Assembly: GCA_017479885.1 (NCBI GenBank)
Contig: JAFVBR010000023.1
Location: 1 to 32,758, forward strand
Source of the DNA: Paludibacteraceae bacterium
GTDB lineage: Bacteria > Bacteroidota > Bacteroidia > Bacteroidales > Paludibacteraceae
Length of the DNA stretch: 32,758 bases
Direction of reading: 5' to 3'
Shown: in pieces, positions 626 to 31,015 of the stretch
Numbering within the stretch: the stretch's first letter is position 1
How the letters are laid out: each line of letters begins with the position of its first letter
Program-made: the position numbers and the translations under genes
Notes under the pieces: generated by a model
The model's input: the letters and a program-made list of their open reading frames with translations, nothing else
What the model was told of the DNA's origin: nothing
Databases searched by the model: none

Positions 626-3600
626 ATGGCTTCAATCAAAAAAACAGAAAGAGTCAACTTTGCTACGATTCAGAAGCAGATGCCTTATCCTGATTTTCTG
701 GATATCCAGTTGAAATCGTTCAAGGAGTTTTTCCAGATGGATTCGTCACCTGAGCAGCGTCGTCAAGAAGGACTCTACAAAGTGTTTTCCGAGAACTTTC
801 CCATTACGGATACCCGGAATAACTTTATTCTTGAATTCCTCGATTATTTCGTGGATCCTCCCCGCTACACCATTGAAGAATGTCTGCAGCGCGGACTAAC
901 TTACAGCGTGCCTTTGAAGGCCAAACTCAAGCTCTCCTGCACCGATCCCGATCATGAGGACTTTGCGACAGAGGTACAGGATGTATTTCTGGGAACCATC
1001 CCATACATGACTCCGAAGGGCACCTTTGTAATCAACGGTGCAGAGCGCGTGGTAGTAAGTCAGCTTCACCGTTCGCCGGGTGTGTTCTTCGGAACAAGCC
1101 GCCATACCAACGGAACCCAGTTGTATTCAGCCCGTATTATTCCGTTCCGCGGTTCGTGGATTGAGTTTGCCACCGACATCAGCAACGTGATGTATGCTTA
1201 CATTGACCGTAAGAAGAAACTGCCTGTCACCACATTGCTTCGTGCCATAGGTTTCGAGAGCGACAAGGATATTCTTGACTGCTTCGGACTGGCCGAGGAA
1301 GTGAAGGTAAGCAAAGCGTCTCTGAACAAACTTATAGGTCGCAAACTTGCAGGTAAGGTGCTCAAACCATGGAGAGAAGACTTCGTGGACGAGGACACCG
1401 GCGAGGTGGTTACCATAGAGCGTAATGAAGTGATAATAGAGCGTGACGAGGAGCTGAACAAGGACAACATTCAGGCTATCATTGATTCGGGTGCGAAGAC
1501 AATTCTTCTTTATCCCGAGGAGCAGAGCAAGAATGACAACAGCATCATCTTCAACACTCTTCAGAAAGACCCGACCAACTCGGAGAAAGAGGCTGTGCTC
1601 TATATCTATCGCCAGCTGCGCAATGCCGAGCCTGCCGATGACAATACAGCCCGTGAGGTGATCAACGGTCTGTTCTTCTCGGAGAAACGTTATGACCTGG
1701 GAGATGTAGGCCGCTACAGAATCAACCGCAAGCTCAATCTTGATATTCCTGTTGACACCCGCGTGCTTACCAAAGAGGATATAATCGAGATTATCAAATA
1801 TCTGATAGAACTTATCAATTCGAATGCTGAAGTTGATGATATCGACCACCTGAGCAACCGTCGTGTCCGCACCGTAGGCGAGCAGTTGTACAACCAGTTC
1901 GGTATAGGTCTGGCACGTATGTCCCGTACAATCCGCGAGCGTATGAACGTTCGCGACAACGAGGTGTTTGCTCCTACCGACCTTATCAACGCAAAGAGCA
2001 TATCTTCCGTTATCAACAGTTATTTCGGAACGAATGCCCTTTCACAGTTCATGGACCAGCAGAACCCGTTGGCAGAAATCACTCACAAGCGCCGTATGTC
2101 GGCTCTCGGTCCCGGCGGTTTGAGTCGTGACCGTGCAGGATTCGAGGTTCGTGACGTACACTATACCCATTATGGCCGTCTGTGCCCGATTGAGACACCT
2201 GAAGGTCCGAACATCGGTCTTATCTCATCTCTCTGTATATATGCCAAAATCAACAATCTCGGTTTCATAGAGACACCTTACCGCAAGGTGGAGGATTCTG
2301 TGGTTGACCTGTCAGACAACGGCGTAGTTTACATGACAGCAGAGGACGAGGAGAAGCATATTGTTGCTCAGGGTAACGCTCCTCTTGATGAGAACGGTCA
2401 TTTCGTTCGCGACAAGGTAAAAGCACGTTACGAGGCTGATTTCCCGGTAGTGGGACCCGACCAGATTACCCTGATGGACGTTGCTCCTTCGCAGATTGCC
2501 TCTATTGCTGCAGCACTTATTCCGTTCCTCGAGCACGACGATGCCAACCGTGCATTGATGGGTTCGAACATGATGCGCCAGGCAGTTCCTCTGATTACTT
2601 CGGAGGCTCCGATTGTAGGTACAGGAATAGAAGGCCAATTGATTCAGGATTCACGCACACAACTTGTTGCAGAAGGCAACGGCGAAGTGTTGTATGTGGA
2701 TGCAGACACTATCAGAATCAAGTATGACCGTACGGAACAGGAAGAGTTCATCAGCTTCGAGCCTTCAGTGAAGGAATACAGTATTCCCAAGTTCCAGCGT
2801 ACAAACCAGAACACCACTATTGACCTGCACCCAATCGTCCGCAAAGGCGACAAGGTGGTAGCCGGTCAGATAATGACGGAAGGTTTTGCTACCCAGAACG
2901 GCGAGCTGGCTCTCGGCAAAAACCTCAAGGTTGCATATATACCTTGGAAAGGTTACAACTATGAGGATGCTATCGTGCTGTCGGAGCGCATAGTACGCGA
3001 AGACATGTTCACTTCAGTCCACGTGGTAGAGCAACTTCTCGAGGTTCGTGAGACAAAACGCGGATACGAAGAGTTCACTTCCGACATACCCAATGTCAGC
3101 GAAGATGCAACGAGAGACCTTGATGAGAACGGTATAGTACGCATAGGCGCACGCATTGAGCCGGGCGACATCATTATAGGCAAGATTACTCCCAAGGGCG
3201 AAAGCGACCCGTCACCTGAAGAGAAACTTCTGAAGGCTATCTTCGGTGACAAGGCAGGCGACGTGAAGGATGCTTCGCTCAAGGCATCACCTTCACTGTC
3301 CGGTATAGTAATCGGCAAACGTTTGTATCAGAAAGCCAACAAGGACCGTAAAGAGAAGCAGGACGACAAACTGCGTCTGGCAGAGATGCAGGCTGAGTTT
3401 GATGCTCAGGTTGCCGAGCTGAAAGAGCAACTTGTAGAGAAACTGCTTGTTCTCACCGACGGAAGGCCTTCAGCAGGCGTTAAAGATTTCATGGGTACCG
3501 ACATCATCTCGCGCAACAGCCGCTTCACACGTGAACGTCTGGAGATGATTGACTACAACTCAGTAATGCTTGCACGCTGGACATTTGACGAGGAGCAGAA

Positions 3601-4438
3601 CGCTCTGATCCGTCAGTGCATACTCAACTATATAAAGAAATACAAAGAGTATGACGCACAACTGAAACGCCGTAACTTCGACCTCACCATCGGTGACGAA
3701 CTTCCGAACGGAATCATCCAGATGGCAAAGGTATATATAGCCAAGAAACGCAAGATCCGCGTAGGTGACAAGATGGCAGGCCGCCACGGTAACAAGGGTA
3801 TTGTCAGCAAGATTGTACGCGTGGAAGATATGCCTTTCCTCGCCGACGGAACACCTGTTGACATAGTTCTGAACCCGCTGGGTGTGCCTTCACGTATGAA
3901 CCTTGGTCAGATTTTCGAGGCAGTGCTCGGTTGGGCAGGTCGCGAACTTGGTGTGAAATTCGCCACTCCTATCTTCGACGGTTGCACAATGGACAACCTG
4001 AACGAATGGACCGACAAGGCAGGACTTCCTCGTGCAGGCAAGACCTATCTGTATGACGGTGGTACAGGCGAGATGTTCGACCAGCCTGCAACAGTGGGTG
4101 TAACCTACTTCATGAAGTTAGGTCACATGGTTGACGACAAGATGCACGCCCGTTCGATTGGTCCTTACAGCTTGATAACCCAGCAACCTCTTGGAGGTAA
4201 GGCTCAGTTCGGCGGACAGCGTTTCGGTGAGATGGAGGTTTGGGCTCTTGAGGCTCACGGCGCCGCTCACGTGCTGCAAGAGATACTGACAGTGAAGTCT
4301 GACGACGTTAACGGTCGTGCCCGTACTTACGAGGCAATAGTAAAGGGTGAGCCTATGCCCACACCGGGATTGCCTGAATCGCTCAATGTGCTGCTGCACG
4401 AACTGCAAGGTCTGGCACTATCAATAAATATGGATTAA
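626..4438 (+). CDS. rpoB: DNA-directed RNA polymerase subunit beta
   Basis: This 1270-residue protein is the beta subunit of RNA polymerase, which with beta' forms the catalytic cleft. Full-length homology is obvious. The rifampicin pocket lies at about residues 473-492 and includes [10 protein letters not shown] and [13 protein letters not shown]. The positions equivalent to E. coli D516, H526 and S531 are D477, H487 and S492, so no classical rifampicin-resistance substitution is seen. [17 protein letters not shown] follows downstream. The C-terminal region has the conserved [20 protein letters not shown] segment and ends [21 protein letters not shown]. The ATG at 626 gives the typical [12 protein letters not shown] start of Bacteroidetes RpoB. 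It is followed after 91 nt by rpoC. Confidence 0.99.
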
Positions 4439-4529: not shown

Positions 4530-7500
4530 ATGGCTTTCAAACAAGATAATAAAACAAGCAAAGGTTTCAATAAGATTACTATTGGTCTTGCTTCTCCCGA
4601 AGAGATTCTCCGCCTCTCGAGTGGTGAAGTGCTGAAACCCGAAACTATCAACTATCGTACCTACAAGCCTGAGCGAGACGGTTTGTTCTGCGAGCGCATT
4701 TTCGGTCCTACCCGTGACTACGAATGCCATTGCGGCAAGTACAAACGTATCCGCTACAAAGGCATAGTGTGCGACCGTTGCGGTGTGGAGGTTACGGAGA
4801 AGAAAGTGCGTCGTGAGCGTATGGGTCATATCCAACTGGTGGTTCCCGTTGCTCATATATGGTACTTCCGTTCGCTGCCCAACAAGATGGGTTACCTGCT
4901 TGGTATGCCGACCAAGAAACTCGACAGCATTATTTATTATGAGAAGTATGTGGTAATACAAAGCGGTGTTCTCGAAGGACAAGAGTTCGGCGAAGGACTG
5001 ACTGTGGAAAACAACATGCTGCTCTCCGAGGACGAGTATCTGGAACTGATGGACAAACTGCCTCAGGGCAATCAGTCGCTCGAGGATACCGATCCTCAGA
5101 AGTTCATTGCCAAGATGGGTGCGGAAGCAGTATATGACCTGCTTTGCCGTATCGACCTCGATGCTTTGAGCTACGAGCTTCGCGACAGGGCTTCCAAAGA
5201 TTCTTCGCAACAGCGTAAGACCGAGGCTCTGAAACGTCTGCAGGTAGTTGAGTCGTTCCGTGCTTCGAAGGGCAAGAACCGTCCCGAATGGATGATTCTG
5301 AAGATAATTCCCGTCACTCCTCCTGAGCTCCGCCCGTTGGTACCTCTGGATGGCGGACGCTTTGCAACCAGCGACTTGAACGATCTCTATCGTCGCGTCA
5401 TTATCAGAAACAACCGTCTGAAACGACTTATTGAAATAAAGGCTCCCGAAGTGATTCTGCGCAACGAGAAGCGTATGCTCCAGGAGGCAGTTGACTCTCT
5501 GCTCGACAACTCGCGCAAGAGCACTGCCATCAAGAGCGATGCCAACCGTCCGCTGAAGTCACTGAGTGACTCGCTGAAAGGCAAACAAGGCCGTTTCCGT
5601 CAGAACCTGCTTGGTAAGCGTGTTGACTATTCGGCACGTTCGGTTATCGTTGTAGGTCCGGAACTGAAGATGCACGAGTGCGGTCTGCCTCAGGATATGG
5701 CTGCCGAACTTTACAAGCCTTTTGTTATCCGCAAACTTATAGAGCGCGGTATAGTGAAGACAGTGAAGTCCGCCAAGAAGATTATCGACCGCAAAGACCC
5801 CATCATCTGGGAGATTCTTGAGCACGTAATGGAAGGACATCCCGTACTGCTTAACCGTGCTCCTACACTTCACCGTTTGGGTATTCTCGCATTCCAGCCC
5901 CGCATGATTTCGGGTAAGGCTATTCAGTTGCACCCGCTGGCATGTACCGGTTTCAATGCCGACTTCGACGGTGACCAGATGGCAGTGCACCTCCCGCTGA
6001 GCAATGAGGCTATACTTGAAGCCCAACTGCTTATGCTGGGTTCGCACAACATCCTCAACCCTGCCAACGGTGCTCCTATCACCGTTCCATCGCAGGATAT
6101 GGTGCTTGGTCTGTACTACATCACCAAAGAGCGTGCAGGCGCAAAGGGCGAAGGACTGATATTCTATTCTCCCGAAGAGGCTGAGATTGCCCTCAACGAG
6201 AAGAAAGTTGACATGCATGCCAAAATCAAGGTTCGTACACGCGACATCGTTGACGGTCAGGAGGTAACACGTATCATTGATACCACTCCCGGTAGAATAC
6301 TTGTCAACCGTTATGTACCTGAAGAGGTGGGTTTCGTCAATGTAGTATTGAAGAAAAACACTCTGCGTGATATCATCGGTAACGTAATCAAGACTTGCGG
6401 TGTGGCACGTACGGCTCAGTTCCTCGACGACATCAAGAACCTCGGTTACCAGATGGCGTTCAAGGGAGGTCTGTCGTTCAACCTCAACGACATCATCATC
6501 CCGCCTGAGAAAGAGAGTCTGGTCGCTGAAGGAAACCAGGAAATAGAAGAGATTACCTTCAACTACAACAACGGACTTATCACCAACAACGAGCGTTACA
6601 ACCAGGTGATTGACACATGGACCCACGTTGATACCAACCTTACCCAGGTATTGATGAAAGAGATGGCCCAGGCCGACCAGGGATTCAATGCAGTGTTCAT
6701 GATGATGGACTCGGGTGCCCGTGGTTCAAAGCAGCAGATCAAGCAGCTGAGCGGTATGCGTGGACTTATGGCCAAACCGCAGAAAGCAGGTGCCGAAGGC
6801 GGTCAGACCATTGAGAACCCTATTCTTTCCAACTTCAAGGAAGGTCTGTCAGTGCTTGAGTACTTCATCTCTACCCACGGTGCACGTAAAGGTCTTGCCG
6901 ATACCGCTCTTAAGACTGCGGATGCAGGTTATCTGACCCGTCGTCTGGTTGACGTCAGCCACGATGTGATTATCACCGAAGAGGACTGCGGTACACTGCG
7001 CGGACTTACCGCTACCGAGATAAAGAAGAACGAGAACGTGGTGGCATCGCTTTACGACCGTATACTCGGCCGTGTGAGTGTTCACGATGTATATGACCCG
7101 ATTACCGGCGAATTGTATGTTGCTGCCGGAGATGAGATTCGCGAAGACGCAGCCGAGAAGATAGAGAAATCGGCTATCGAGTCGGTGGAAATACGTTCGG
7201 TACTCACCTGCGAGGCCAAACATGGTGTTTGCGCCAAGTGCTACGGACGTAACCTTGCTACCGGTCGTCTGGTAGAGAAGGGCGAAGCAGTGGGTGTGAT
7301 TGCCGCTCAGTCGATCGGTGAGCCCGGTACACAGCTTACTCTTCGTACATTCCACGTCGGTGGTGTGGCAGGTAACGTTGCAACCGAGTCGAGCTATACA
7401 CTCAAATACGACGGTATAGTAGAACTGGAAGAACTCCGTACAGTCAAGACTGAAAGCGACACCATCGTAGTAAGCCGTCAGACCGAACTGCGTCTGCGTG

Positions 7501-8816
7501 ACGAGAAGACAGGTGTTGTCCTCACTACATTCAACATACCTTATGCAGCCAAACTGTTTGTTGAAAACGGCAAGAAGTACGAGAAGGGCACTCTGATTTG
7601 CGAGTGGGATCCTTTCAACGCAACTATCGTTATCGAAAACAACGGTAAAGTCCGCTATGAGGACGTGCTGGAGAATGTGACAGCCAAGACTGAGACCGAT
7701 GAGACAACAGGTTTAAAAGAGACCATCATCATCGACTCGAAGGACAAAACCAAGATGCCTACCGCTCACATCGTTGACAAGGACGGCAATATTGTACGCA
7801 CATACAACCTGCCTCTCAATGCCCACTTGCAGATTAAGGACGGTGACAACGTGAAGGTTGGTGACTTGCTGATCAAGATTCCGCGTACCGTAGGTAAAGC
7901 AGGCGATATCACCGGTGGTCTGCCTCGTGTAACCGAACTCTTTGAAGCACGCAACTCCAGCAATCCTGCCATCGTGAGCGAGATTGACGGTGAAGTAACC
8001 TTCGGCAAAATCAAACGCGGTAACCGCGAACTGACTGTTACCTCGCGTCTGGGTGAGGAGAAGAAATATCTCATTCCTCTGTCCAAACAGATTCTTGTTC
8101 AGGAGAACGACTTCGTACGTGCAGGTACTCCGCTCAGCGACGGTGCTGTCACTCCCGACGACATCCTTGCCATCAAGGGTCCCACCGCTGTGCAGGATTA
8201 TATTGTCAACGAGGTTCAGGACGTCTATCGTCTGCAGGGTGTGAAAATCAACGACAAGCACTTTGAGATTATCGTTCGCCAGATGATGCGCAAGGTTGAG
8301 ATTCTCGACCCGGGTGACACCCGTTTCCTTGAGAAACAACTTGTTGACAAGAACGACTTCCTTGAGGAGAACGACCGTATCTGGGGCAAGAAAGTGGTGG
8401 TAGATGCCGGTGACTCGGAGAACCTGCATGCAGGTCAGATAGTTGCTCCGCGCAAACTCCACGATGAGAACTCAAGCCTCAAACGCCGTGACAAGAAACT
8501 TGTTGAAGTGCGCGACGCTATGCCTGCCACTTCCGCCCAGGTGCTGCAGGGTATCACCCGTGCCGCATTGGGTACCAAGTCGTTTATGTCCGCCGCTTCC
8601 TTCCAGGAGACCAACAAGGTGCTCAACGAGGCTGCTATCAACGGCAAGGTTGACTATCTTGAGGGCATGAAGGAGAACGTTATCTGCGGTCATCTGATTC
8701 CTGCAGGTACGGGTCTGCGCGAGTTCAAGCAGATTGTAGTCCACAACAGAGAGGACTATGAGCGCCTGCTTGCACAGCGTGCCGCCAACGAGGCTGAAGA
8801 AACCGACGAAGAGTAA
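4530..8816 (+). CDS. rpoC: DNA-directed RNA polymerase subunit beta'
   Basis: This 1428-residue protein is the beta' subunit of RNA polymerase and carries the active-site magnesium ligands. The catalytic motif NADFDGDQM is at residues 476-484, with D478, D480 and D482 as metal ligands. The N-terminal zinc site is C66, C68, C81 and C84 (ECHCGKYKR and CDRCG). The second zinc site is C820, C894, C901 and C904 ([11 protein letters not shown]). The bridge-helix/trigger-loop region includes [19 protein letters not shown]. The C-terminus holds the usual region that packs against omega and ends in an acidic tail ([10 protein letters not shown]). The ATG at 4530 gives the conserved MAFKQDNKT start. 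A terminator follows. Confidence 0.99.
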
Positions 8817-12472: not shown

Positions 12473-13087
12473 ATGTCAAACGATGTTTTGATTATGCCGG
12501 AATACGGCAGAAACGTGCAGCGGATGGTGGAGTATGCTCTCACTATTGAGGATAAAGAAGAGCGAACACGTTGCGTACGCTCTATCATGCATACAATGGA
12601 GAACCTGTTCCCTTATCTCAAAAACGAAGAGTCACGACACAAGATGTACGACCATCTTGCGCTTATGTCCGGATTCCGACTTGATATCGACTTCCCCTAT
12701 AATCGTCCCACTCCCGAAGAATTGCGATACACTCCGGAGCGTCTGCCGTACAACACTACCATACCTCTCAAGTATCGCCACTACGGACGTATAGTCGGCA
12801 ATATGATACAGGAGGCGTTGAAGGAGAAGGATGAGGATATAAGGAAGAAAATGATAATCAGAATTGGTAGCCGTATGAGGCAGGATTTCCTTGTCTGGAA
12901 TAAGGACAACGTGGATGAGGCGCGCTTGTGCACTGATATTGCCGCATTGTCCAACGGACAGATAGATTGCAATTTCCCCGAGTTTCATGAGGCAATTCAG
13001 AAACAATTGCAGCAGAAACAGACCAATAACCAGCAGAAGGGTCAGAATCAGCAAAACCCGAAGAAGAAACGCAAGAAAAAGAAATGA
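12473..13087 (+). CDS. DUF4290 domain protein
   Basis: This 204-residue protein matches the Bacteroidetes-specific DUF4290 family: NDVLIMPEYGRNVQRMV at the start, IMHTMENLFPYL, and the segment HYGRIVGNMIQEALKEKD near residue 107. No catalytic motif is obvious and the family's function is unknown. The C-terminus (from about residue 178) is a low-complexity Gln/Asn then Lys tail ending PKKKRKKKK, which would be strongly basic and disordered and could contact nucleic acid. There is no signal peptide, so it is probably cytoplasmic. In other Bacteroidales this family is often found beside murA; no such gene is present here. A very strong terminator follows immediately. Confidence 0.9.
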   Translation: MSNDVLIMPEYGRNVQRMVEYALTIEDKEERTRCVRSIMHTMENLFPYLKNEESRHKMYDHLALMSGFRLDIDFPYNRPTPEELRYTPERLPYNTTIPLKYRHYGRIVGNMIQEALKEKDEDIRKKMIIRIGSRMRQDFLVWNKDNVDEARLCTDIAALSNGQIDCNFPEFHEAIQKQLQQKQTNNQQKGQNQQNPKKKRKKKK

Positions 13088-13127
13088 TAATAAAAAAAAC
13101 AGGGTCTTGCCCTGTTTTTTTTATTAT
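13087..13127. terminator. Bidirectional terminator between convergent genes
   Basis: A perfect 18-bp stem (13087-13104 with 13110-13127, 5-nt loop) has an A-run on the left arm and a T-run on the right. It can therefore terminate both the plus-strand DUF4290 transcript and the minus-strand nuclease transcript that converge on it. The stem begins inside the DUF4290 stop codon. Confidence 0.92.
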
Positions 13128-13154
13128 GACATAAGCATGTGCAGGCTTGTGCTC

Positions 13155-14516
13155 TTATTTTACTCTTTGTCCGGTTATAGTGTACTGCGTGCCGCCGATA
13201 ACGATTCTGAAGCTGCCGTTGGTAAATACTGTCTTTGGGGCGTTTCCTTTTTTTATTCCTGTGTCTTCAGTTGCCGTTGTTATTTGTGTGCAGGTGCAGC
13301 CGCTCTTGTCCTCTGTATTCTGATATTCGGCACTGGCAGTGAACAGCAGTCTGCCTAAGTCAACTTCTTCGCCCTGCTTGTTGCCCCATATATATTCTGC
13401 AAGACAAGGGTAGTCGATAAACGGGTTGCGGTTGTGCTGTATGCGCGCCACTTCTGCCGTGCGTCTGATTTCTTTGTCAGACACGGGGTCTTGCCTGTGC
13501 CATTGAATGAGCAGATTTCTCAACCATGGCTGAAATTCCTGCCAGTTGCCGTTGTCAAGACATGATGTGGCGGGACTACCGGTCCAAGTGAGTTCGCCGT
13601 ATGCAGTTGCAACATAGAAATACATACGCGCGAAATCGCCTTTGTATTCGTCGGCTGGTTCAAACACACGGTCGGTATATCCTAATCCTGCAGCGGCAGC
13701 ACCCGTTCTGAATCCTCCGTAGTCCTTGAACGAACTGCCAACGAGTCCCGGAGGGCAGTTACTTTTCGACTGATTGGCCGAGCCATCGGCAGGTGTGAGA
13801 TGGTGCAAGTCTTTGTAGGCATCGTTTTGCGTCCCTCCCCACCAAGACTTTGGAAAACTATGTTCAATCTGCAATCCGCTGACAGAGGCGTATGGCTGGT
13901 CCGGGTTGAAATAGCGTTTGTTATTGGAGTACATGTCAAGCACGCTGTTGTCGGCAGTATCGCGGTCGGTATAGTAGAAACCCGCCCATGTCTTGTTTGC
14001 CGATCCGCTACCGTAGGTGTATCTGAAACCGCCTTTTATAATCTGTTGCAGAGCGTCTTTGAGTACTGAGTCCTGAAGTCCGTTTATGTCGTCATAGTAG
14101 CCTGGTTGCAACTGGCTGAAATCAACATAATCGAGCTGAGGCTTCACAATGGTGGCAGGATAGACTTCGGGTGTTGAATTGCCTTGCCAGTCAACATAAT
14201 TATACAGATATCCGAAAAGGAGTACGGTGTCAACATCGTCGAATATTCTCTCATCGAAAGACAATCCTTCTGGTGCACTGAGGTTGTAAGCGCGAATAGA
14301 ACTGGTGCTGTCGCAGATGTCAAATGTAGCCTGTGAACCTGTGATGGTGATGTTGCTGCAAATGACGCCGCATACGTAATATTGCACTTCGCTTGTCTGC
14401 TTTGCCTCCAGCCCGCGGGCCAATTGTACAGCCTGAGTGACGGTTAGAGTGTCTGCTGCGCATACAATGCCGACGTATAAAAGCATAATGAGACCGATGA
14501 GAGAATAACGTTTCAT
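13155..14516 (-). CDS. Exported endonuclease I-type nuclease
   Basis: This 453-residue protein has a signal peptide (about 1-20, ending VCA), an N-terminal beta-rich region (about 25-125) resembling the OB-like domains fused to secreted nucleases, and an endonuclease I (EndA/Vvn type) domain from about 135 to 385. The active-site signature is LQIEHSFPKSWWGG with H219, followed by DLHHLTPADGSANQSKSN (about 236-253) and a late NRNPFIDYPCLAEYIWG that is typical of the family. Metal-dependent non-specific cleavage of DNA or RNA outside the cell is expected. The last about 25 residues (GSFRIVIGGTQYTITGQRVK) resemble the end of a Bacteroidetes sorting tail (GQRV). It probably shares a transcript with the gene upstream (32-nt gap). 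Confidence 0.88.
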   Translation of the reverse strand: MKRYSLIGLIMLLYVGIVCAADTLTVTQAVQLARGLEAKQTSEVQYYVCGVICSNITITGSQATFDICDSTSSIRAYNLSAPEGLSFDERIFDDVDTVLLFGYLYNYVDWQGNSTPEVYPATIVKPQLDYVDFSQLQPGYYDDINGLQDSVLKDALQQIIKGGFRYTYGSGSANKTWAGFYYTDRDTADNSVLDMYSNNKRYFNPDQPYASVSGLQIEHSFPKSWWGGTQNDAYKDLHHLTPADGSANQSKSNCPPGLVGSSFKDYGGFRTGAAAAGLGYTDRVFEPADEYKGDFARMYFYVATAYGELTWTGSPATSCLDNGNWQEFQPWLRNLLIQWHRQDPVSDKEIRRTAEVARIQHNRNPFIDYPCLAEYIWGNKQGEEVDLGRLLFTASAEYQNTEDKSGCTCTQITTATEDTGIKKGNAPKTVFTNGSFRIVIGGTQYTITGQRVK

Positions 14517-24322: not shown

Positions 24323-24361
24323 GCGGAGGTCTGTCATTTTCCTGACAGACCTCTGCTTACA
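24323..24361. terminator. Terminator between convergent genes
   Basis: A 14-bp stem with one mismatch (24323-24336 with 24343-24356) encloses TTTTCC and is followed by TTACATTTC. It should stop the long parA-to-YfhO transcript. The minus-strand glycosyltransferase stop codon falls within its left arm (24334-24336), so the stem overlaps the end of that gene. Confidence 0.7.
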
Positions 24362-25236
24362 TTTCTTCGGAAAAGCACTAATTTCCACCCCTTTGCCGGA
24401 GACAAAGTCAGTGTGTACCAAACCGCTAACACTATTGTCCCCCCCCATTTGACCAATTCTGACAACCACCTCTTTATATATTTCTTTCTTGAAATGCCGA
24501 GAGTGCGCTGTCTCTCGCTTCTGCCTATCTGCAATGTAAGTTTGTCAAAATACTCCTTTCCCAGTTTCTTTTGCGGAATTATATGGTGAAGTACAGCTTG
24601 GGGCAAATAGTAAAACCTCATGCCCTGTGTCTGCATCTTGTCGAAGATGTCCTTTTCTTCCGCTCCCATCAGACTGTCTCCTTTTCTGCCTAATGCTGTG
24701 TTGAATAGTCCTGTTTTCTCAAATACCGTTGCTCTGTATGCCGCATTCCCTCCTCCCGGGTATTTGCCTTTCGGGTATTCCCGCTCCTTGTCACCATAGT
24801 ACATATATGCCGTGAGCAGAGCCTTTGTGTATGTGCTCATCCACTTTGGTTCCTCTGTTTCGTATAGAGGGATTATAGGTCCTCCCGCAGCCGCTATGTC
24901 AGGGTTTCGCTTGAAGAAATCCATGTATGTGCTCAGATACCGCTCGTCCACAAGTGCATCGTCGTCAACATATAGCAGCACCTCACCTTTTGCCTCCCGT
25001 ATTCCTTTGTTGCGGGCAGCAGACAGACCTTGTTCCGTTTCCTTCATGTATCTGAAACAAACGTCAGGATGACGTTCGCTGAACTCTATGCACACCTCAT
25101 GTGTCCGGTCAGTGCAGTTATTGTCAACAAGCAGTATCTCATATTCCGCCTTTGCAAGCGTATTCCTGGCAATACTCTCCAATAGATTGCCTATGTATTT
25201 CTCTCTGTTATATGTGCAGATGATGACAGATATCAT
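24334..25236 (-). CDS. Glycosyltransferase family 2
   Basis: This 300-residue GT2 enzyme opens MISVIICTYNREKYI, has VDNNCTDRTHEV, the donor-binding VDDDALVDERYL and the acceptor/base region GRKGDSLMGAEEKDI. The last about 35 residues are partly hydrophobic (TIVLAVWYTLTLSPAKGWKLVLF) and may associate with the membrane. The frame opens 10 codons earlier (25266), but that start overlaps the upstream gene; ATG 25236 gives the canonical N-terminus and a 19-nt gap. A run of eight G (minus strand; 24446-24439) lies in the codons for WGG, so slippage would change the hydrophobic tail. Last gene of the polysaccharide cluster. Confidence 0.93.
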   Translation of the reverse strand: MISVIICTYNREKYIGNLLESIARNTLAKAEYEILLVDNNCTDRTHEVCIEFSERHPDVCFRYMKETEQGLSAARNKGIREAKGEVLLYVDDDALVDERYLSTYMDFFKRNPDIAAAGGPIIPLYETEEPKWMSTYTKALLTAYMYYGDKEREYPKGKYPGGGNAAYRATVFEKTGLFNTALGRKGDSLMGAEEKDIFDKMQTQGMRFYYLPQAVLHHIIPQKKLGKEYFDKLTLQIGRSERQRTLGISRKKYIKRWLSELVKWGGTIVLAVWYTLTLSPAKGWKLVLFRRNVSRGLSGK

Positions 25237-25255
25237 AATTGTTTTGTTTAGATGC

Positions 25256-26089
25256 TTAGTTGTCATTGAGGTAGCTGTCTAACAAATCTTTGACGAGATG
25301 GTCTTTTCCGGCAGCAATCTCTTTCCAGCACGAGCCGTTGATTGTATGTAACCAATGCTTGTTGTCAAACCATTCCAGTGAATCTCCGTGACGGTCACCG
25401 CCCTCGCGAAGAGGTTCTATACATTCGTCGGGGAAGTATAGTTCTTTCATGTTTAAGCGGGAATAGATATCATACCAGTTCCCGCCACCTGAATCCAAGT
25501 AGGTCTTATACGGCATTACCGGCATAAAATCCACTTTCTTGTTCTGCACATAGTCGTAACGGAAGAACGACATGATTGCAGACAGGTACCAACATTCTTT
25601 TCTCTCTCTTAATGGTCCGTAAACAGGCTGTGTTGACAAAATGTTGCATATAGAAAGTTTCCTGACAGGAAACAAATCATGATCAATGTATCCGAATATC
25701 TCAGGACGCAAAGTCCTGACGATATGGTGATACACATAGTTTAGACACATGGCATGTGAGTAACTGCCGCCTATCTTGTTCAGTGAGTTTCGGGGCAGCG
25801 ATAAATAAGCAACTTGGTTTTGTCTGCAGAATGACTCTATTTGTACTCTTGCCTCTTTGTCCGCAGAATTATCTGCAACAAGATAGATATAGTCATCGGT
25901 GATATTCTTCTTTAGAAGTTCATACTGATACTGTATGAGTTCGGCATTGTTGAAAGCAATAGTGGTTATAAGCAGTTGGCAAGAGGTGTTGCTTTGAGGC
26001 AATCCGATTTGCTTAAGCGGTTGTTTTGAGAGAGTCAGCCGTTCGAGAAAACGAACCAGTATGCGGAATATGATACGTTGCGGAGTCAT
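25256..26089 (-). CDS. Putative glycosyltransferase (GT-A-like)
   Basis: This 277-residue protein looks like a nucleotide-sugar glycosyltransferase: an opening strand LLITTIAFNNAELIQYQYE, a second strand with YIYLVADNSADKEA, and GYIDHDLFPV around D136-x-D138, a likely DxD metal/nucleotide motif. Beyond that come GGGNWYDIYSRL and an acidic C-terminal part (EPLREGGDRHGDSLEWF). I cannot assign a GT family. It lies 6 nt after the cytidylyltransferase and 19 nt before the GT2, inside the minus-strand polysaccharide run. Base composition looks A/T-richer than the housekeeping genes. It is probably cytoplasmic or membrane-peripheral. Confidence 0.7.
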   Translation of the reverse strand: MTPQRIIFRILVRFLERLTLSKQPLKQIGLPQSNTSCQLLITTIAFNNAELIQYQYELLKKNITDDYIYLVADNSADKEARVQIESFCRQNQVAYLSLPRNSLNKIGGSYSHAMCLNYVYHHIVRTLRPEIFGYIDHDLFPVRKLSICNILSTQPVYGPLRERKECWYLSAIMSFFRYDYVQNKKVDFMPVMPYKTYLDSGGGNWYDIYSRLNMKELYFPDECIEPLREGGDRHGDSLEWFDNKHWLHTINGSCWKEIAAGKDHLVKDLLDSYLNDN

Positions 26090-26095
26090 TCTGTC

Positions 26096-26785
26096 TCAGA
26101 GTTTGCATTTGAGAGCCTGATATAACGTTTGAGCATATTCAAAGTCTTCGGGCCAATCAATGTCGATGGATTCTAAATTGCTTGTCTGATACATCTGTAC
26201 AGACTTGCCTATCCTGTCATGCAGATTGATATAGGTGCTTATATCTGCAATAAATGCGCCACTGTTGACCTCATACCATACTGGAAGGGTCTGTGTGCGC
26301 GGCCACTTCTCGGTCTCTCTGTTGTAATTGACAGGAGCATCATCCTTCCATATAAATGTACGCAAGGAATTGACAGACATAAGTGAATCATATTCAGACA
26401 AGCAATCATAATATGAATCAATCATTGCTTTGTAAGTATCTGCCGAAATAAAAGGTGATGTTACATGAGTCCAGATGATGGTGGCATCTTCTTTTATGAT
26501 GGATGGTACGTAGTTTATCAGTTCATCGGTGGTAGTGGAAGACAGGCAGAGTTGTTCGGGTCGTGGCATAGGTTTTATGCGCTTGTCGGAAAAATCAGCC
26601 CCGATTTGAAGAACAGTCTCATCGTCGGATGACAAGATAATCTCATCAATGGCTTCTGTCAGAAGCAATTGTTCGAGTTTGATTCTGAGAAGTCCTCCCT
26701 CAATACCTGCGAATGTGCGGGTGTTCTTGTTGGGTATGCGCTGACTGCCTTTGCGGCATGGGAGAAAAACTATGTTCTTTTTCAT
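26096..26785 (-). CDS. CMP-sugar (acylneuraminate-type) cytidylyltransferase
   Basis: This 229-residue enzyme belongs to the CTP_transf_3 family that activates ulosonic acids as CMP-sugars (NeuA, KdsB and relatives). The CTP-binding P-loop-like motif FLPCRKGSQRIPNKNTR lies at about residues 7-23, then SSDDETVLQIG, MPRPEQLCLSSTTTDELI, IWTHVTSPFISADTYKAM and a final SIDIDWPEDFEYAQ, all as in NeuA-type enzymes. The substrate is probably a nonulosonic or related 2-keto-3-deoxy acid; which one cannot be told. Its ATG overlaps the stop of the aldolase fusion (ATGA), so the two are translationally coupled, which supports a joint pathway. Confidence 0.9.
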   Translation of the reverse strand: MKKNIVFLPCRKGSQRIPNKNTRTFAGIEGGLLRIKLEQLLLTEAIDEIILSSDDETVLQIGADFSDKRIKPMPRPEQLCLSSTTTDELINYVPSIIKEDATIIWTHVTSPFISADTYKAMIDSYYDCLSEYDSLMSVNSLRTFIWKDDAPVNYNRETEKWPRTQTLPVWYEVNSGAFIADISTYINLHDRIGKSVQMYQTSNLESIDIDWPEDFEYAQTLYQALKCKL

Positions 26786-28344
26786 AAGGCCAATAGCGAG
26801 TATATGGATTTCTCTTTCAAATTGTGATATTTAGTGGGGAGTAATGAACACATCTGATGTTTGCCCGAAAAGTAGTCAATCACTGACTGGGTTTCTTCCA
26901 TCATGTTGAACTTGTCGGATTGTATATCTGCATCGTAACCGTCGTAACCAAGCAGCAGCAATGAATCTGCACCAAGATATTCCGCAATCTTTACTGATGC
27001 AAACAAAGGCGAATCGGAAAGACTGTAATCATCATTTTGCCCCGGAAGAGAATATGTCTGGTTTGTGGCGGTAGATGGTATGTAAATATCCATGTCGGGA
27101 TCTTGGCGGCTGACAACAAGGATGTCGCTACTGCGAAGTGATGCAAGTTGCGTTTCAAGACGTTTGCCTTCAATACCTATCATATATATGTATCTGCTAA
27201 CCGAATTGTCAACGGAGTCAAACAAGTGCAGATGCTTGCTTGAAGAGAATATCAGCTGTACTTTTTTTGTCTGATTGGCTATCAGTTCCAAAATAGCTTT
27301 TATGTGCATGCCGACAGACTCTCCTCCGCCGATTAACATGGTAATGTGCTCTGTATCATTTGCAGACGGCAAATCGTGGTAGATATTATCATGGTTGATT
27401 GGTTTGATGTGGGATTGCAACCGGCGTACTATGCTGCTTGTAGAGTATCGTTTCTTGGTAATCCACTCCATTATGTCTTTTTGTGGAAGCGAGTTGCAAC
27501 CGGAAATCATGTACGGCAAGTTGGTCCCCCAACAATACTTTTGTCTAAGTAGTTCAAAGTCTTCTATCGTTTCCATCAGTTGGTTGAGTGAAACGGATTG
27601 GTCGTATTTTGCGCAATATGTCAGTAATAGTTCGGTACGCAAGTTTCCGGCACCTCGTCCCATGCCTGTCATAGTGGCATCAATACCGTCAATTCCTGCG
27701 TTGATGGCAGCAAGAGAATTGGCAAAAGCGAGTTCTATGTTGTTGTGTCCATGGAAACCTATTTTTCCCTTGTATTGCTCTCTTATCTTGCATATACAAT
27801 CTGCTATCTGGTCAGGATAGACGCTTCCGTAAGAATCAACCATCATAATGTTGTCAACATATTGTTCCGTGCCCTTCAAGTGCTTGGCAAACTCAGGATT
27901 CTCCACCCATGTTGACATATACATTATGTTTATGGCAGTTTCCAATCCTTGCTGCTTGGCTATACGGGCAATCTTGACGGCTTTGCTTGTCTCGTCTGGT
28001 TTGGTTGCAAAGCGTACAAGATTTACATATTGGGAGAGATTACTGAGTAGCGGAACCACACTGTTCTCGTCAACCTCTTTCAAATTGATCATTATGGCTG
28101 TTTTCTTGTTAGGACACAATTGCCTGCTTCGTTGTAACACGTATCTTGGCAGGTAATTGTATTCGCCATGATATACCGAGGTGTCAAGACTCCGATAGCC
28201 TAATTCTACGTAATCAATAGGTAAGGTATTGACTGCATTAAGGTATTTCTCGACCAGTGCCAATGGAAAGTCCCAATTGGTGTAGTACCCTCCGTCCCGC
28301 AGAGTGCAGTCCAAAAGTGTGATATGTTTATTGTTGATTAACAT
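26782..28344 (-). CDS. HMGL/DRE-TIM aldolase fused to a Rossmann-like domain
   Basis: This 520-residue protein has an N-terminal TIM barrel of the HMGL-like (PF00682) group that includes 4-hydroxy-2-oxovalerate aldolase and HMG-CoA lyase. Visible are the metal/substrate motif LLDCTLRDGGYYTNW (D12, R16), VELGY, the metal ligands in GFHGHNN (H198, H200) and the loop GMGRGAGN (227-234). All key residues are present. A second domain begins near residue 330 with a glycine-rich strand-turn (MLIGGGESVG) and ends with YLGADSLLLLGYDGYD (about 456-471), a Rossmann-like pattern reminiscent of MptE/DUF115 domains; this second assignment is tentative. It likely forms a carbon-carbon bond with pyruvate in sugar-acid synthesis. 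Confidence 0.82.
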   Translation of the reverse strand: MLINNKHITLLDCTLRDGGYYTNWDFPLALVEKYLNAVNTLPIDYVELGYRSLDTSVYHGEYNYLPRYVLQRSRQLCPNKKTAIMINLKEVDENSVVPLLSNLSQYVNLVRFATKPDETSKAVKIARIAKQQGLETAINIMYMSTWVENPEFAKHLKGTEQYVDNIMMVDSYGSVYPDQIADCICKIREQYKGKIGFHGHNNIELAFANSLAAINAGIDGIDATMTGMGRGAGNLRTELLLTYCAKYDQSVSLNQLMETIEDFELLRQKYCWGTNLPYMISGCNSLPQKDIMEWITKKRYSTSSIVRRLQSHIKPINHDNIYHDLPSANDTEHITMLIGGGESVGMHIKAILELIANQTKKVQLIFSSSKHLHLFDSVDNSVSRYIYMIGIEGKRLETQLASLRSSDILVVSRQDPDMDIYIPSTATNQTYSLPGQNDDYSLSDSPLFASVKIAEYLGADSLLLLGYDGYDADIQSDKFNMMEETQSVIDYFSGKHQMCSLLPTKYHNLKEKSIYSLLAL

Positions 28345-28347
28345 ATA

Positions 28348-29364
28348 TTATGATATTGGTTCTGATATTTTGTTCATTATTTCAGTCGGGTGATAAGCAG
28401 GAGTATCCTCGAGAAGCGGCATCATGCTATAGCATTTGACTCCTGTCTGCTGAGCATATAGAGCGACAGAGGAGTCGCAGGAATAGAAATCTGCTTTGCA
28501 CCATGCCAACAGACTCTCAAGTACGACATCTTGAGGAAGTTCATACAGGTTGTTTATATGTCTATTCAAAATGTCAAGATATGCACTCTTCTGTGCCTTA
28601 TTGGCAGGCGCATTGAATCGGGGATGAAACTTAACGGCTATGTTTTGATAATTTTTCGTGCTAAGATAACCGGCTAATACTGTGTATGCTTCCTCTACCT
28701 TATCAAGTGTTACTCCTGAATTGAAAAGCGGATCTACTGAAATAACGGCATCAGGTCTGTAATCATACTCTTTTTCCTCGAAAGCGAAACCTATAACTCT
28801 CAGATGTTGCTGATGCATAGGAAAACAGAGTTGCGAGGTCGCTATACATTCGTGGAACTTGGGATGGTCGGTTGTTATAAAGTGATTCTTGAGTGCAAAA
28901 ATTCTTGGGAAACAAGGTAATAAGAAACATTTGTAAACAATTCGTTTCCAGCCTGTGAATGTTTCAGGGTTCTTTTTCTCGTATGAAACCAATCCGTCCT
29001 CGATAATGTTATATGCCTTACATAGTTTGTTAGTCACAATCATGCTGCAGATGTCATTGTAGCAAACAGATGTATAGAAGATAAAGTCATTATGTGCGGT
29101 AAATTTGTCAATCTGTCTGTCAAAAGCTCTCATGTTATTGAGAGTTGCCCATATCTTCCAACCTTCGAATATCCTGCCGTGTCGTGAGTCAATGTTATAA
29201 GTAGTCGCTAACTGGTGAGGGAATACATGCTCATACTCTGATGGCATACGGTAGCCTCTGAGCAGAAGAAAGTAGCAATCTGTTGGTGAAATGTTATCAG
29301 AAACAATAATTTTCTTCGCTACGTTGAATGTGAGATGACTTGCTATGCAGAAAAGGTGTTTCAT
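28348..29364 (-). CDS. Putative sialyltransferase-like (CMP-ulosonate) transferase
   Basis: This 338-residue protein shows the three short signatures known from bacterial sialyltransferases of GT38, GT52 and GT80: an acidic pair followed by Gly (IEDGLVSYE, 122-124), an HP motif in VKFHPRF (H247, P248) and a Ser-Ser pair in CDSSVALYA (298-299). Overall length and the two-lobed GT-B-like distribution agree. In those families the acidic residue and the His bind acceptor and CMP. Similarity outside the motifs is low, so the donor could be any CMP-linked ulosonate. It starts at the end of the KdsC-like gene and stands 3 nt from the aldolase gene. The base composition seems A/T-rich. Confidence 0.68.
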   Translation of the reverse strand: MKHLFCIASHLTFNVAKKIIVSDNISPTDCYFLLLRGYRMPSEYEHVFPHQLATTYNIDSRHGRIFEGWKIWATLNNMRAFDRQIDKFTAHNDFIFYTSVCYNDICSMIVTNKLCKAYNIIEDGLVSYEKKNPETFTGWKRIVYKCFLLPCFPRIFALKNHFITTDHPKFHECIATSQLCFPMHQQHLRVIGFAFEEKEYDYRPDAVISVDPLFNSGVTLDKVEEAYTVLAGYLSTKNYQNIAVKFHPRFNAPANKAQKSAYLDILNRHINNLYELPQDVVLESLLAWCKADFYSCDSSVALYAQQTGVKCYSMMPLLEDTPAYHPTEIMNKISEPIS

Positions 29365-29389
29365 GTAGTAATGCTAAAGCTTCAATATG

Positions 29390-29863
29390 CTATATTTCCC
29401 TTGTCATATCTGCCCACTCTCTCACAGCTCCGTGTCCGCCCGCATGGTTCATGATGTGTATGTGAGGCAGGGCGAGCACTTCGTTGCATGCGTCTTGGGG
29501 GCAGGCTGCCATACCTACAGCTGAAAGCAGGTCGATGTCGTTCACATCGTCACCTATGTATGCCACTTGTTGCATGGTGATACCGAGTTCGGAGCATATT
29601 TTCTTTACAACTGACAGTTTGCCGTCGAAGCGCACTCCCTGACAGAGGTAGTCAACGCCGAGTTTCTTTGCCCGGGCTTCAACAACAGGTGTGGTCTCTG
29701 AAGTGATTATGCCGATTCTTACGCCGGACTGTTGCAGCAGTTTCATCCCCATGCCGTCTCTCACATAGAATCGTTTCATTACGTCACCTTCGGCAGAATA
29801 ATACATTCCTCCGTCGGTCAGAGTGCCGTCAACATCGGTAAGAAAGAGTTTGATTTTATTCAT
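29390..29863 (-). CDS. KdsC-like HAD phosphatase
   Basis: This 157-residue cytoplasmic HAD enzyme has the catalytic pair in LTDVDGTLTDGG (D10 nucleophile, D12), GIITSETTPVV with the motif II hydroxyl residue, a Lys in the FDGKLSVVKK stretch, and GDDVNDIDLL as motif IV. It lacks a cap domain, matching the C0 subfamily that includes KdsC (Kdo-8-phosphate phosphatase) and the KDN-9-phosphate phosphatase known from Bacteroides thetaiotaomicron. The role fits dephosphorylating a 2-keto-3-deoxy sugar acid before CMP activation. It could alternatively be the cell's ordinary KdsC for lipid A core synthesis. It lies 12 nt after the GT4 stop. Confidence 0.88.
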   Translation of the reverse strand: MNKIKLFLTDVDGTLTDGGMYYSAEGDVMKRFYVRDGMGMKLLQQSGVRIGIITSETTPVVEARAKKLGVDYLCQGVRFDGKLSVVKKICSELGITMQQVAYIGDDVNDIDLLSAVGMAACPQDACNEVLALPHIHIMNHAGGHGAVREWADMTREI

Positions 29864-29875
29864 GTCGTTTCCAAT

Positions 29876-31015
29876 TTATTCTTTTATTGTGGTTCCCAGA
29901 CCCACGAACTTGGCTGTAAGTTTGTCCCATGTGTATTTGTCTTTCTCTTTTACCACAAAGTCAGTGAAAGATTGTGCCCTGTTGTTTTGATAGAAATCTG
30001 TCAGTGCCTCAGCAATGGCGCATGAATCCGGTTCGACAGCATATCCCATCTTTCCGTGTCTTACTATTTCGCCGAGTCCGCCGACATTGGTAACAAGCAT
30101 AGGTTTATTGAAATGAAAAGCGACTTGAGTCACTCCGCTTTGTGTGGCTGATTTGTATGGCTGAACAATCAGATCTGCAGCCGAGAACCAGTATTGCAGT
30201 TCACTATCGGCAATGAACTCGTTGTGTACAACCACCTTGTCTGTGAGGCCGCTGTCAGCAATCTTTTTCTTGTATTTTTCTTCGTCTTCATAAAACTCGC
30301 CTGCAACAAGCAGTCTTAGTTCCGGAAGTTCCTTATGCATCAAAGCGAATGCGTCCAGCAGGAGGTCCAGACCTTTGTAAGCTCTTACAAGACCAAAGAA
30401 AAGCATGTATTGCCAGTGCGGGTCAAGTGCAAGATGCAGGCATGCCTCTTCTTTAGTATGAATGCTGCCATAGTGGTCGTAGATGGGGTGTGGGGAGAAC
30501 GTTTTCGGTTTGTTATGCCGGTCGTATTTCGAGATGTCTGTTACTACTGATTCCGAGAGTGCCACAAACCCGTCGGTGCTTCGGACGAACAGAGGGGCGA
30601 AGAACTTGTCGATGAACGAGGGCTCATGCGGGAGCAAGTTGTGAACAAGAGCTATGCAGCGTGTTTTCCCGTTTCGCTTGACAATGCGTTCTACAGTGGA
30701 CATGCACGGTGCCATGAATGATGTCCAATAGCAGCAAATCAGCATGTCAGGACATGCTTTCTCTATCAGGTGTCCGGTGCGTAACCACGATATAGGATTG
30801 CAAGAGTTGAGCGTGCGCGTTATGTGCAGGTCGGCGGGTTGCCGTTCTGTTGAGAACTGTGTTTTGCCGGGGAAGAGGAAAGAGGGATACTGGAGTGTAA
30901 AGGTATAGATATGCACTTCATGCCCTTCTTGCATAAACTGACGGGCAAGTCGCTCGTTGAAAGTCGCGAGACCGCCTCTGTAGGGATAAACTGTGCCGAG
31001 TATTGCTATCTTCAT
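29876..31015 (-). CDS. Glycosyltransferase family 4
   Basis: This 379-residue protein is a GT-B glycosyltransferase of family 4. It opens MKIAILGTVYPYRGGLATFN, has an N-terminal acceptor lobe, then the donor lobe with MLFFGLVRAYKGLDLLLDAF, LLVAGEFYEDEE and VVHNEFIADSELQYWFSAADLIVQPY. In the usual E-x7-E position the sequence is SATQSGVTQVAFHFNKP, so the classical acidic pair is replaced, as in a known subgroup where the first Glu is absent. It should add a hexose to a lipid-linked or LPS acceptor in the cytoplasm. First gene of the polysaccharide run, 63 nt after the thiL stop. Confidence 0.92.
   Translation of the reverse strand: MKIAILGTVYPYRGGLATFNERLARQFMQEGHEVHIYTFTLQYPSFLFPGKTQFSTERQPADLHITRTLNSCNPISWLRTGHLIEKACPDMLICCYWTSFMAPCMSTVERIVKRNGKTRCIALVHNLLPHEPSFIDKFFAPLFVRSTDGFVALSESVVTDISKYDRHNKPKTFSPHPIYDHYGSIHTKEEACLHLALDPHWQYMLFFGLVRAYKGLDLLLDAFALMHKELPELRLLVAGEFYEDEEKYKKKIADSGLTDKVVVHNEFIADSELQYWFSAADLIVQPYKSATQSGVTQVAFHFNKPMLVTNVGGLGEIVRHGKMGYAVEPDSCAIAEALTDFYQNNRAQSFTDFVVKEKDKYTWDKLTAKFVGLGTTIKE

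Follow-up and report, generated by a model that had tools for sequence, protein, structure and literature searches.

A two-domain HMGL-type aldolase paired with a cytidylyltransferase: a probable NeuB- and KdsA-independent module for CMP-activated ulosonic acids

We analyzed 32,758 nucleotides of DNA from a Paludibacteraceae bacterium (GCA_017479885.1, contig JAFVBR010000023.1, positions 1-32,758; hereafter the window), in which a run of minus-strand genes encodes an aldolase next to a putative sugar-activating enzyme. The gene order is thiL, a family 4 glycosyltransferase (GT4), kdsC, a PF07388-like transferase, the aldolase, a cytidylyltransferase, a protein at 25256-26089 and a family 2 glycosyltransferase (GT2). 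A first-pass annotation had described five of these genes and proposed that the aldolase replaces NeuB in making a sugar activated with cytidine monophosphate (CMP); all five were found in place. The aldolase (26782-28344, minus strand, 520 amino acids) matched PF00682 at 74.6 bits (cut-off 29). The cytidylyltransferase (26096-26785, minus strand, 229 amino acids) matched PF02348 at 45.9 bits (cut-off 22.6) and is a predicted PseF/NeuA-like enzyme using cytidine triphosphate and an ulosonate; its 59.3 bits against the PseF model TIGR03584 were far under the cut-off of 205.7, which leaves it outside PseF proper. The aldolase stop codon and the cytidylyltransferase start codon share the letters ATGA, the 4-nt overlap reported earlier.

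The aldolase protein consists of two domains. Residues 1-313 (27406-28344, minus strand) form an HMGL-like DRE-TIM barrel containing both of the motifs noted before, LLDCTLRDGGY and HGH, and we take D17, H198 and H200 to be its metal ligands by likeness to DmpG. In a fold search, DmpG-type aldolases were nearer to this domain than HMGL-like synthases, and its closest matches among folds with a known function were pyruvate aldolases, as the first-pass annotation had supposed. Residues 316-520 (26785-27399, minus strand) form a second domain, which that annotation overlooked. Its fold appears to resemble those of Maf, MptE (HPPK) and CstII, with a Foldseek E-value of only 2.6e-3 and none better than Maf; a match to GT42 or GT29 sequences was not found in the fused protein.

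We then looked at the spread of the aldolase. Among 395 genomes of the phylum, 14 matched it at E <= 1e-20; nine of these (10 gene copies) matched near full length and the remainder over the aldolase domain only. One genome, G112, carries two full-length copies (L009 and L017) about 20 kb apart. A scan of bacterial and archaeal genomes gave at least 576 relatives, from which the best 80, ranked by likeness to the query, were taken as the loci for study. These come from Bacteroidota, Balneolota, Pseudomonadota, Campylobacterota, Bacillota, Cyanobacteriota and one Microthrix metagenome-assembled genome (MAG), with Prochlorococcus and Pelagibacteraceae among the carriers. The open reading frame (ORF) was at least 480 amino acids long in 78 of the 80 loci, the other two (L071 and L079) running off contig ends. 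PF00682 was matched by 65 of 65 relatives, and the window protein and 64 relatives share the order of an aldolase domain followed by a domain with the pattern GGGxS...GYDGY. The nearest relatives (L033 and L034) are from Paludibacteraceae MAGs, and their aldolases are 63 and 65% identical to the query over the best segment. We also sought a carrier with a solved polysaccharide, and two proteobacterial versions of the aldolase gave no DNA-level match in E. coli genomes.

In the 78 full-length loci we searched up to 6 kb around the aldolase, using six-frame ORFs of the same strand. A cytidylyltransferase was found near the aldolase in 72 of them; in three of the misses (L041, L076 and L090) the contig ends within 234 bp. 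As a control, we counted cytidylyltransferases lying between -60 and +100 bp on the same strand, and these adjoined 55 of the 72 aldolases vs. 44 of 883 other ORFs (at least 200 amino acids, from the same loci, cytidylyltransferases and HAD proteins excluded). The pairing thus exceeds background, and the survey bears out the co-occurrence that the first-pass annotation had anticipated, including in genomes without NeuB. The annotated gene order on two Leisingera plasmids is aldolase, 3-deoxy-manno-octulosonate cytidylyltransferase, HAD hydrolase. No cytidylyltransferase match was found at the unfused relatives L019, L020, L030 and L032, and none is annotated near L147; two more such relatives, L148 and L149, are unannotated. 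Two unfused genes, at 9977-10999 of L019 and 5968-6993 of L147, lie on rhizobial plasmids among genes for a short-chain dehydrogenase/reductase (SDR), an HAD-IA protein and other metabolic enzymes, and these neighbors hint at a different pathway. In L031 (7504-9549, genome G225), a 681-amino-acid DmpG-like aldolase with a different C-terminal part lies 109 bp from a cytidylyltransferase and about 5 kb from NeuB.

The cytidylyltransferase partner was not always of the same family. Across 80 aldolases, the partner was PseF/NeuA-like in 43 and KdsB-like in 31, and six had none. We mapped the partner type on an aldolase tree of 80 sequences (78 loci, the window and L018), leaving the six without a partner uncounted. 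The label required 14 changes, at least 10 of which were forced by the starred branches, vs. an average of 23.9 for shuffled labels; the tree was built by a quick method with only approximate likelihood ratio (SH-aLRT) support, and contains three long branches and numerous sequences of unusual composition. The reaction common to the PseF/NeuA and KdsB families is the CMP activation of 3-deoxy-2-ulosonic acids. Because two such families swap repeatedly beside one aldolase, the aldolase product is predicted to be a 3-deoxy-2-ulosonic acid, and we regard this exchange as the strongest single argument for that product.

The same partners could be read differently: the cytidylyltransferase might do no more than provide a surface polymer with CMP-Kdo or some other known ulosonate, the aldolase contributing an unrelated acid to that polymer. 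The 31 KdsB-like partners are consistent with this, as is the fact that the assembly of the window (G000; 2.80 Mb, 50 contigs, 93.8% complete) encodes KdsA with KdsD adjoining, as well as KdsB, and so makes Kdo. But this reading needs both partner families to have been brought beside the same aldolase many times, and the two genes of the pair are mostly a few bases apart. At E <= 1e-5, the window, L018 and L021-L112 yielded no KdsA-like ORF, suggesting that KdsA is not tied to the pair. In addition, KdsB is the one cytidylyltransferase of G000 besides that of the window and lies elsewhere in the genome. We therefore consider a supply of CMP-Kdo unlikely, and favor an ulosonic acid made by the aldolase itself.

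To our knowledge, established routes to CMP-activated ulosonic acids all use a synthase dependent on phosphoenolpyruvate (PEP). The first-pass annotation had seen no NeuB at the locus, and we found no match to NeuB (PF03102) anywhere in G000, at its 93.8% completeness, and thus no sign of a NeuB-dependent pathway. NeuB was also not found in 16 of 38 carrier genomes searched. These include the genomes of L033 and L034 as well as G198 and G112, of which the latter two are single contigs and 100 and 99% complete, respectively. Completeness was available for nine of the 38 genomes, five of which are without NeuB; two entries in the list, G203 and G403, probably represent the same genome, as their NeuB coordinates are identical. 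NeuB was present in 10 of the 78 loci, each of which had at least two cytidylyltransferase matches. In L072, for example, one cluster holds both a set of NeuB, a KdsC-type HAD and a cytidylyltransferase and a set of aldolase, cytidylyltransferase and HAD. That a NeuB missing from an incomplete assembly serves the window cytidylyltransferase, or that the sugar is taken from a host, would fit the unfinished state of G000 and the carriers that do have NeuB; against the NeuB-free carriers, and the second cytidylyltransferase in 10 of 10 loci with NeuB, we give it very little credence.

Taken together, these data suggest that the aldolase and the cytidylyltransferase probably form the central part of a module that makes CMP-activated 3-deoxy-2-ulosonic acids independently of NeuB and KdsA. 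As a prediction from genome comparison, such an aldolase route to a CMP-ulosonic acid without NeuB has good support. The interpretation in the first-pass annotation is partly supported as a whole: a CMP-ulosonic acid agrees with our results, whereas "sialic-acid-like" is too narrow a description of the product, the evidence allowing Kdo-like or shorter acids as well.

In the proposed pathway, the metal-dependent aldolase domain would join pyruvate to an aldehyde. The aldehyde would probably be a phosphorylated sugar of central metabolism, because no further gene is conserved with the aldolase; among the 80 anchors we saw no conserved aldehyde-making gene, and the commonest extra neighbors were a mixed SDR/epimerase set (31 of 80). 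An HAD phosphatase would then take off the phosphate, this being the neighboring HAD in most relatives and perhaps KdsC in the window. The cytidylyltransferase would make the CMP-sugar, as its family and the partner switching suggest, and polysialyltransferase-like, GT29-like or other transferases, to judge from linkage, would place the sugar on a surface polysaccharide. The fold of the fused C-terminal domain makes it probable that a cytidine nucleotide binds there, whether for feedback control or in a second catalytic site.

Several observations weigh against this pathway. NeuB occurs somewhere in 22 of the 38 carrier genomes. The choice of loci by likeness to the query favors the fused form, so that unfused aldolases are under-sampled. 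Three Pelagibacteraceae loci with a fused aldolase (L077, L082 and L086) have no cytidylyltransferase match though their contigs continue, and 28 of 80 anchors, including the window and part of its wider clade, have no HAD of the neighboring kind nearby. The aldolase scored 101 bits against TIGR03217 (4-hydroxy-2-oxovalerate aldolase), far under the cut-off of 286, and a Tyr stands at the place next to the DRDG motif that we take to hold the catalytic His in DmpG. Finally, a gene for an HpaI/GarL-type aldolase sits between the aldolase and the cytidylyltransferase in L025, L026, L027, L046, L099 and L102 (L026 and L027 being two copies within one genome) and just ahead of the cytidylyltransferase in L094, so that the HMGL-type enzyme in these seven loci may perform another step.

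In an alternative reading, the HMGL-type enzyme would belong to the pathway but make the aldehyde or condense another acid, the ulosonic acid skeleton coming from another aldolase. The HpaI/GarL-type genes of these seven loci speak for it, and HMGL-like proteins do include acyl-CoA-using synthases and carboxylases. However, no alternative gene for the skeleton recurs across most loci, and the aldolase domain is closer in fold to DmpG-type aldolases than to the synthases, which makes this alternative improbable too, about as much as the supply of CMP-Kdo. We also considered an FR-900098-type phosphonate pathway, which uses an HMGL-type synthase and a CMP-phosphonate transferase; the same two broad enzyme families thus co-occur there. 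G000 had no PEP mutase over the cut-off, with one weak match of 22.4 vs. 31.5 bits in a frame of 276 amino acids, and we think a phosphonate product hardly credible. The proposed ulosonic acid pathway remains our preferred reading.

The phosphatase step differs between the window and most relatives. The window gene kdsC (29390-29863, minus strand) belongs to the Kdo-8-phosphate phosphatase family, matching TIGR01670 at 136.2 bits (cut-off 106.95), and scored 163 bits against NF058599, under the cut-off of 180. The family named in the first-pass annotation was therefore correct. This gene is the single KdsC match in G000, where KdsA, KdsD and KdsB also occur, and it thus probably serves Kdo; with these four, the Kdo route of G000 is complete without the window cytidylyltransferase. 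In the genomes of L033 and L034, the sole KdsC match is likewise near the aldolase. Most simply, the window KdsC is probably the household Kdo-8-phosphate phosphatase, so that its earlier assignment to the new pathway was probably wrong or the enzyme is shared; double duty is possible. The phosphatase by the pair in most relatives is an HAD of a kind other than KdsC. It has about 200-220 amino acids, lies close to 52 of the 80 anchors, sharing the strand with 51 of them, and scores with the beta-phosphoglucomutase/phosphoglycolate phosphatase groups, and from these scores and its length it is probably capped, unlike KdsC.

Candidate transferases are found on either side of the pair in the window. 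The PF07388-like transferase (28348-29364, minus strand, 338 amino acids) matched PF07388 at 25.6 bits, barely over the cut-off of 23.3, so that the sialyltransferase-type signature ascribed to it earlier holds by a narrow score. Its weak likeness to alpha-2,8-polysialyltransferases makes it a candidate user of the CMP-sugar, and its relatives adjoin the aldolase in L033, L034 and L035 too. The possible transferase at 25256-26089 (minus strand, 277 amino acids) had been called a glycosyltransferase; we found no match over any family cut-off, and outside the window the neighbor surveys showed this protein in L033 and L034, the two nearest relatives, and nowhere else (GTx matches by the pair). 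The GT2 gene (24334-25266, minus strand; PF00535, 111 bits) shares the direction of the operon, and the GT4-type gene (29876-31015, minus strand) matched PF13692 at 77.5 bits. On the plus strand of the window, two ORFs (626-4438 and 4530-8816) are very long, at 1270 and 1428 amino acids.

Other genes recur beside the pair in relatives. In eight loci (L037, L038, L040, L045, L047, L070, L072 and L106), the HAD has GT29 sialyltransferase-like genes next to it, nine in total; among 129 downstream genes, PF00777 matched nine (two also named singly by Pfam) and PF07388 six. A PfkB kinase resembling 2-keto-3-deoxygluconate kinase, under the cut-offs, directly follows the cytidylyltransferase in L058 (12267-13292) and L063 (12307-13332), and SDR epimerase genes are within the set in L025, L027, L062 and L102. 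The second aldolase, kinase and epimerase genes point to 2-keto-3-deoxy acid chemistry, without naming the sugar. L088 has a borderline Kdo kinase match between the aldolase and the HAD (12892-13617; PF06293, 21.3 bits, equal to the cut-off of 21.3).

If the module works as proposed, genome surveys keyed on NeuB or KdsA overlook the polymers that it makes, and hidden acidic sugars are predicted on many cell surfaces, the carriers including, by record title, rumen, gut and marine bacteria. It would also offer an aldolase for producing such sugars and a likely donor for bacterial GT29-like genes. In a wider sense, for which we put the chances at about even, activated ulosonic acids may include a third class alongside PEP-made Kdo and nonulosonic acids, in which a two-domain aldolase/nucleotide-binding enzyme of several phyla converts pyruvate to a shorter or unusual 3-deoxy-ulosonic acid that is moved by dedicated GT29-like or polysialyltransferase-like enzymes.

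We found no prior account of the aldolase-cytidylyltransferase pair in the open PubMed Central literature, subscription papers and bioRxiv being outside the search. One paper (PMC9858101) describes a Campylobacter jejuni capsule locus carrying a gene called 4-hydroxy-2-ketovalerate aldolase. Among solved structures, the putative aldolase BVU_2661 (PDB 3dxi) has a homologous aldolase domain; the likeness was judged on that domain alone, which is the solved part, and the entry title names no function. The aldolase domain matches the 4-hydroxy-2-oxovalerate aldolases DmpG, BphI and AmnG in fold and, presumably, in metal ligands, but the window protein has added Arg residues at 51 and 230, a different C-terminal domain and a cytidylyltransferase neighbor. 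That C-terminal domain differs from Maf, MptE, CstII and the GT29 sialyltransferases in being fused to an aldolase. The NeuB-phosphatase-NeuA and KdsA-KdsC-KdsB routes have the step order proposed here, carbon-carbon bond formation, dephosphorylation and CMP activation, and the same cytidylyltransferase families, whereas the module would replace the PEP-dependent synthase with a pyruvate-type aldolase and would mostly use another class of HAD.

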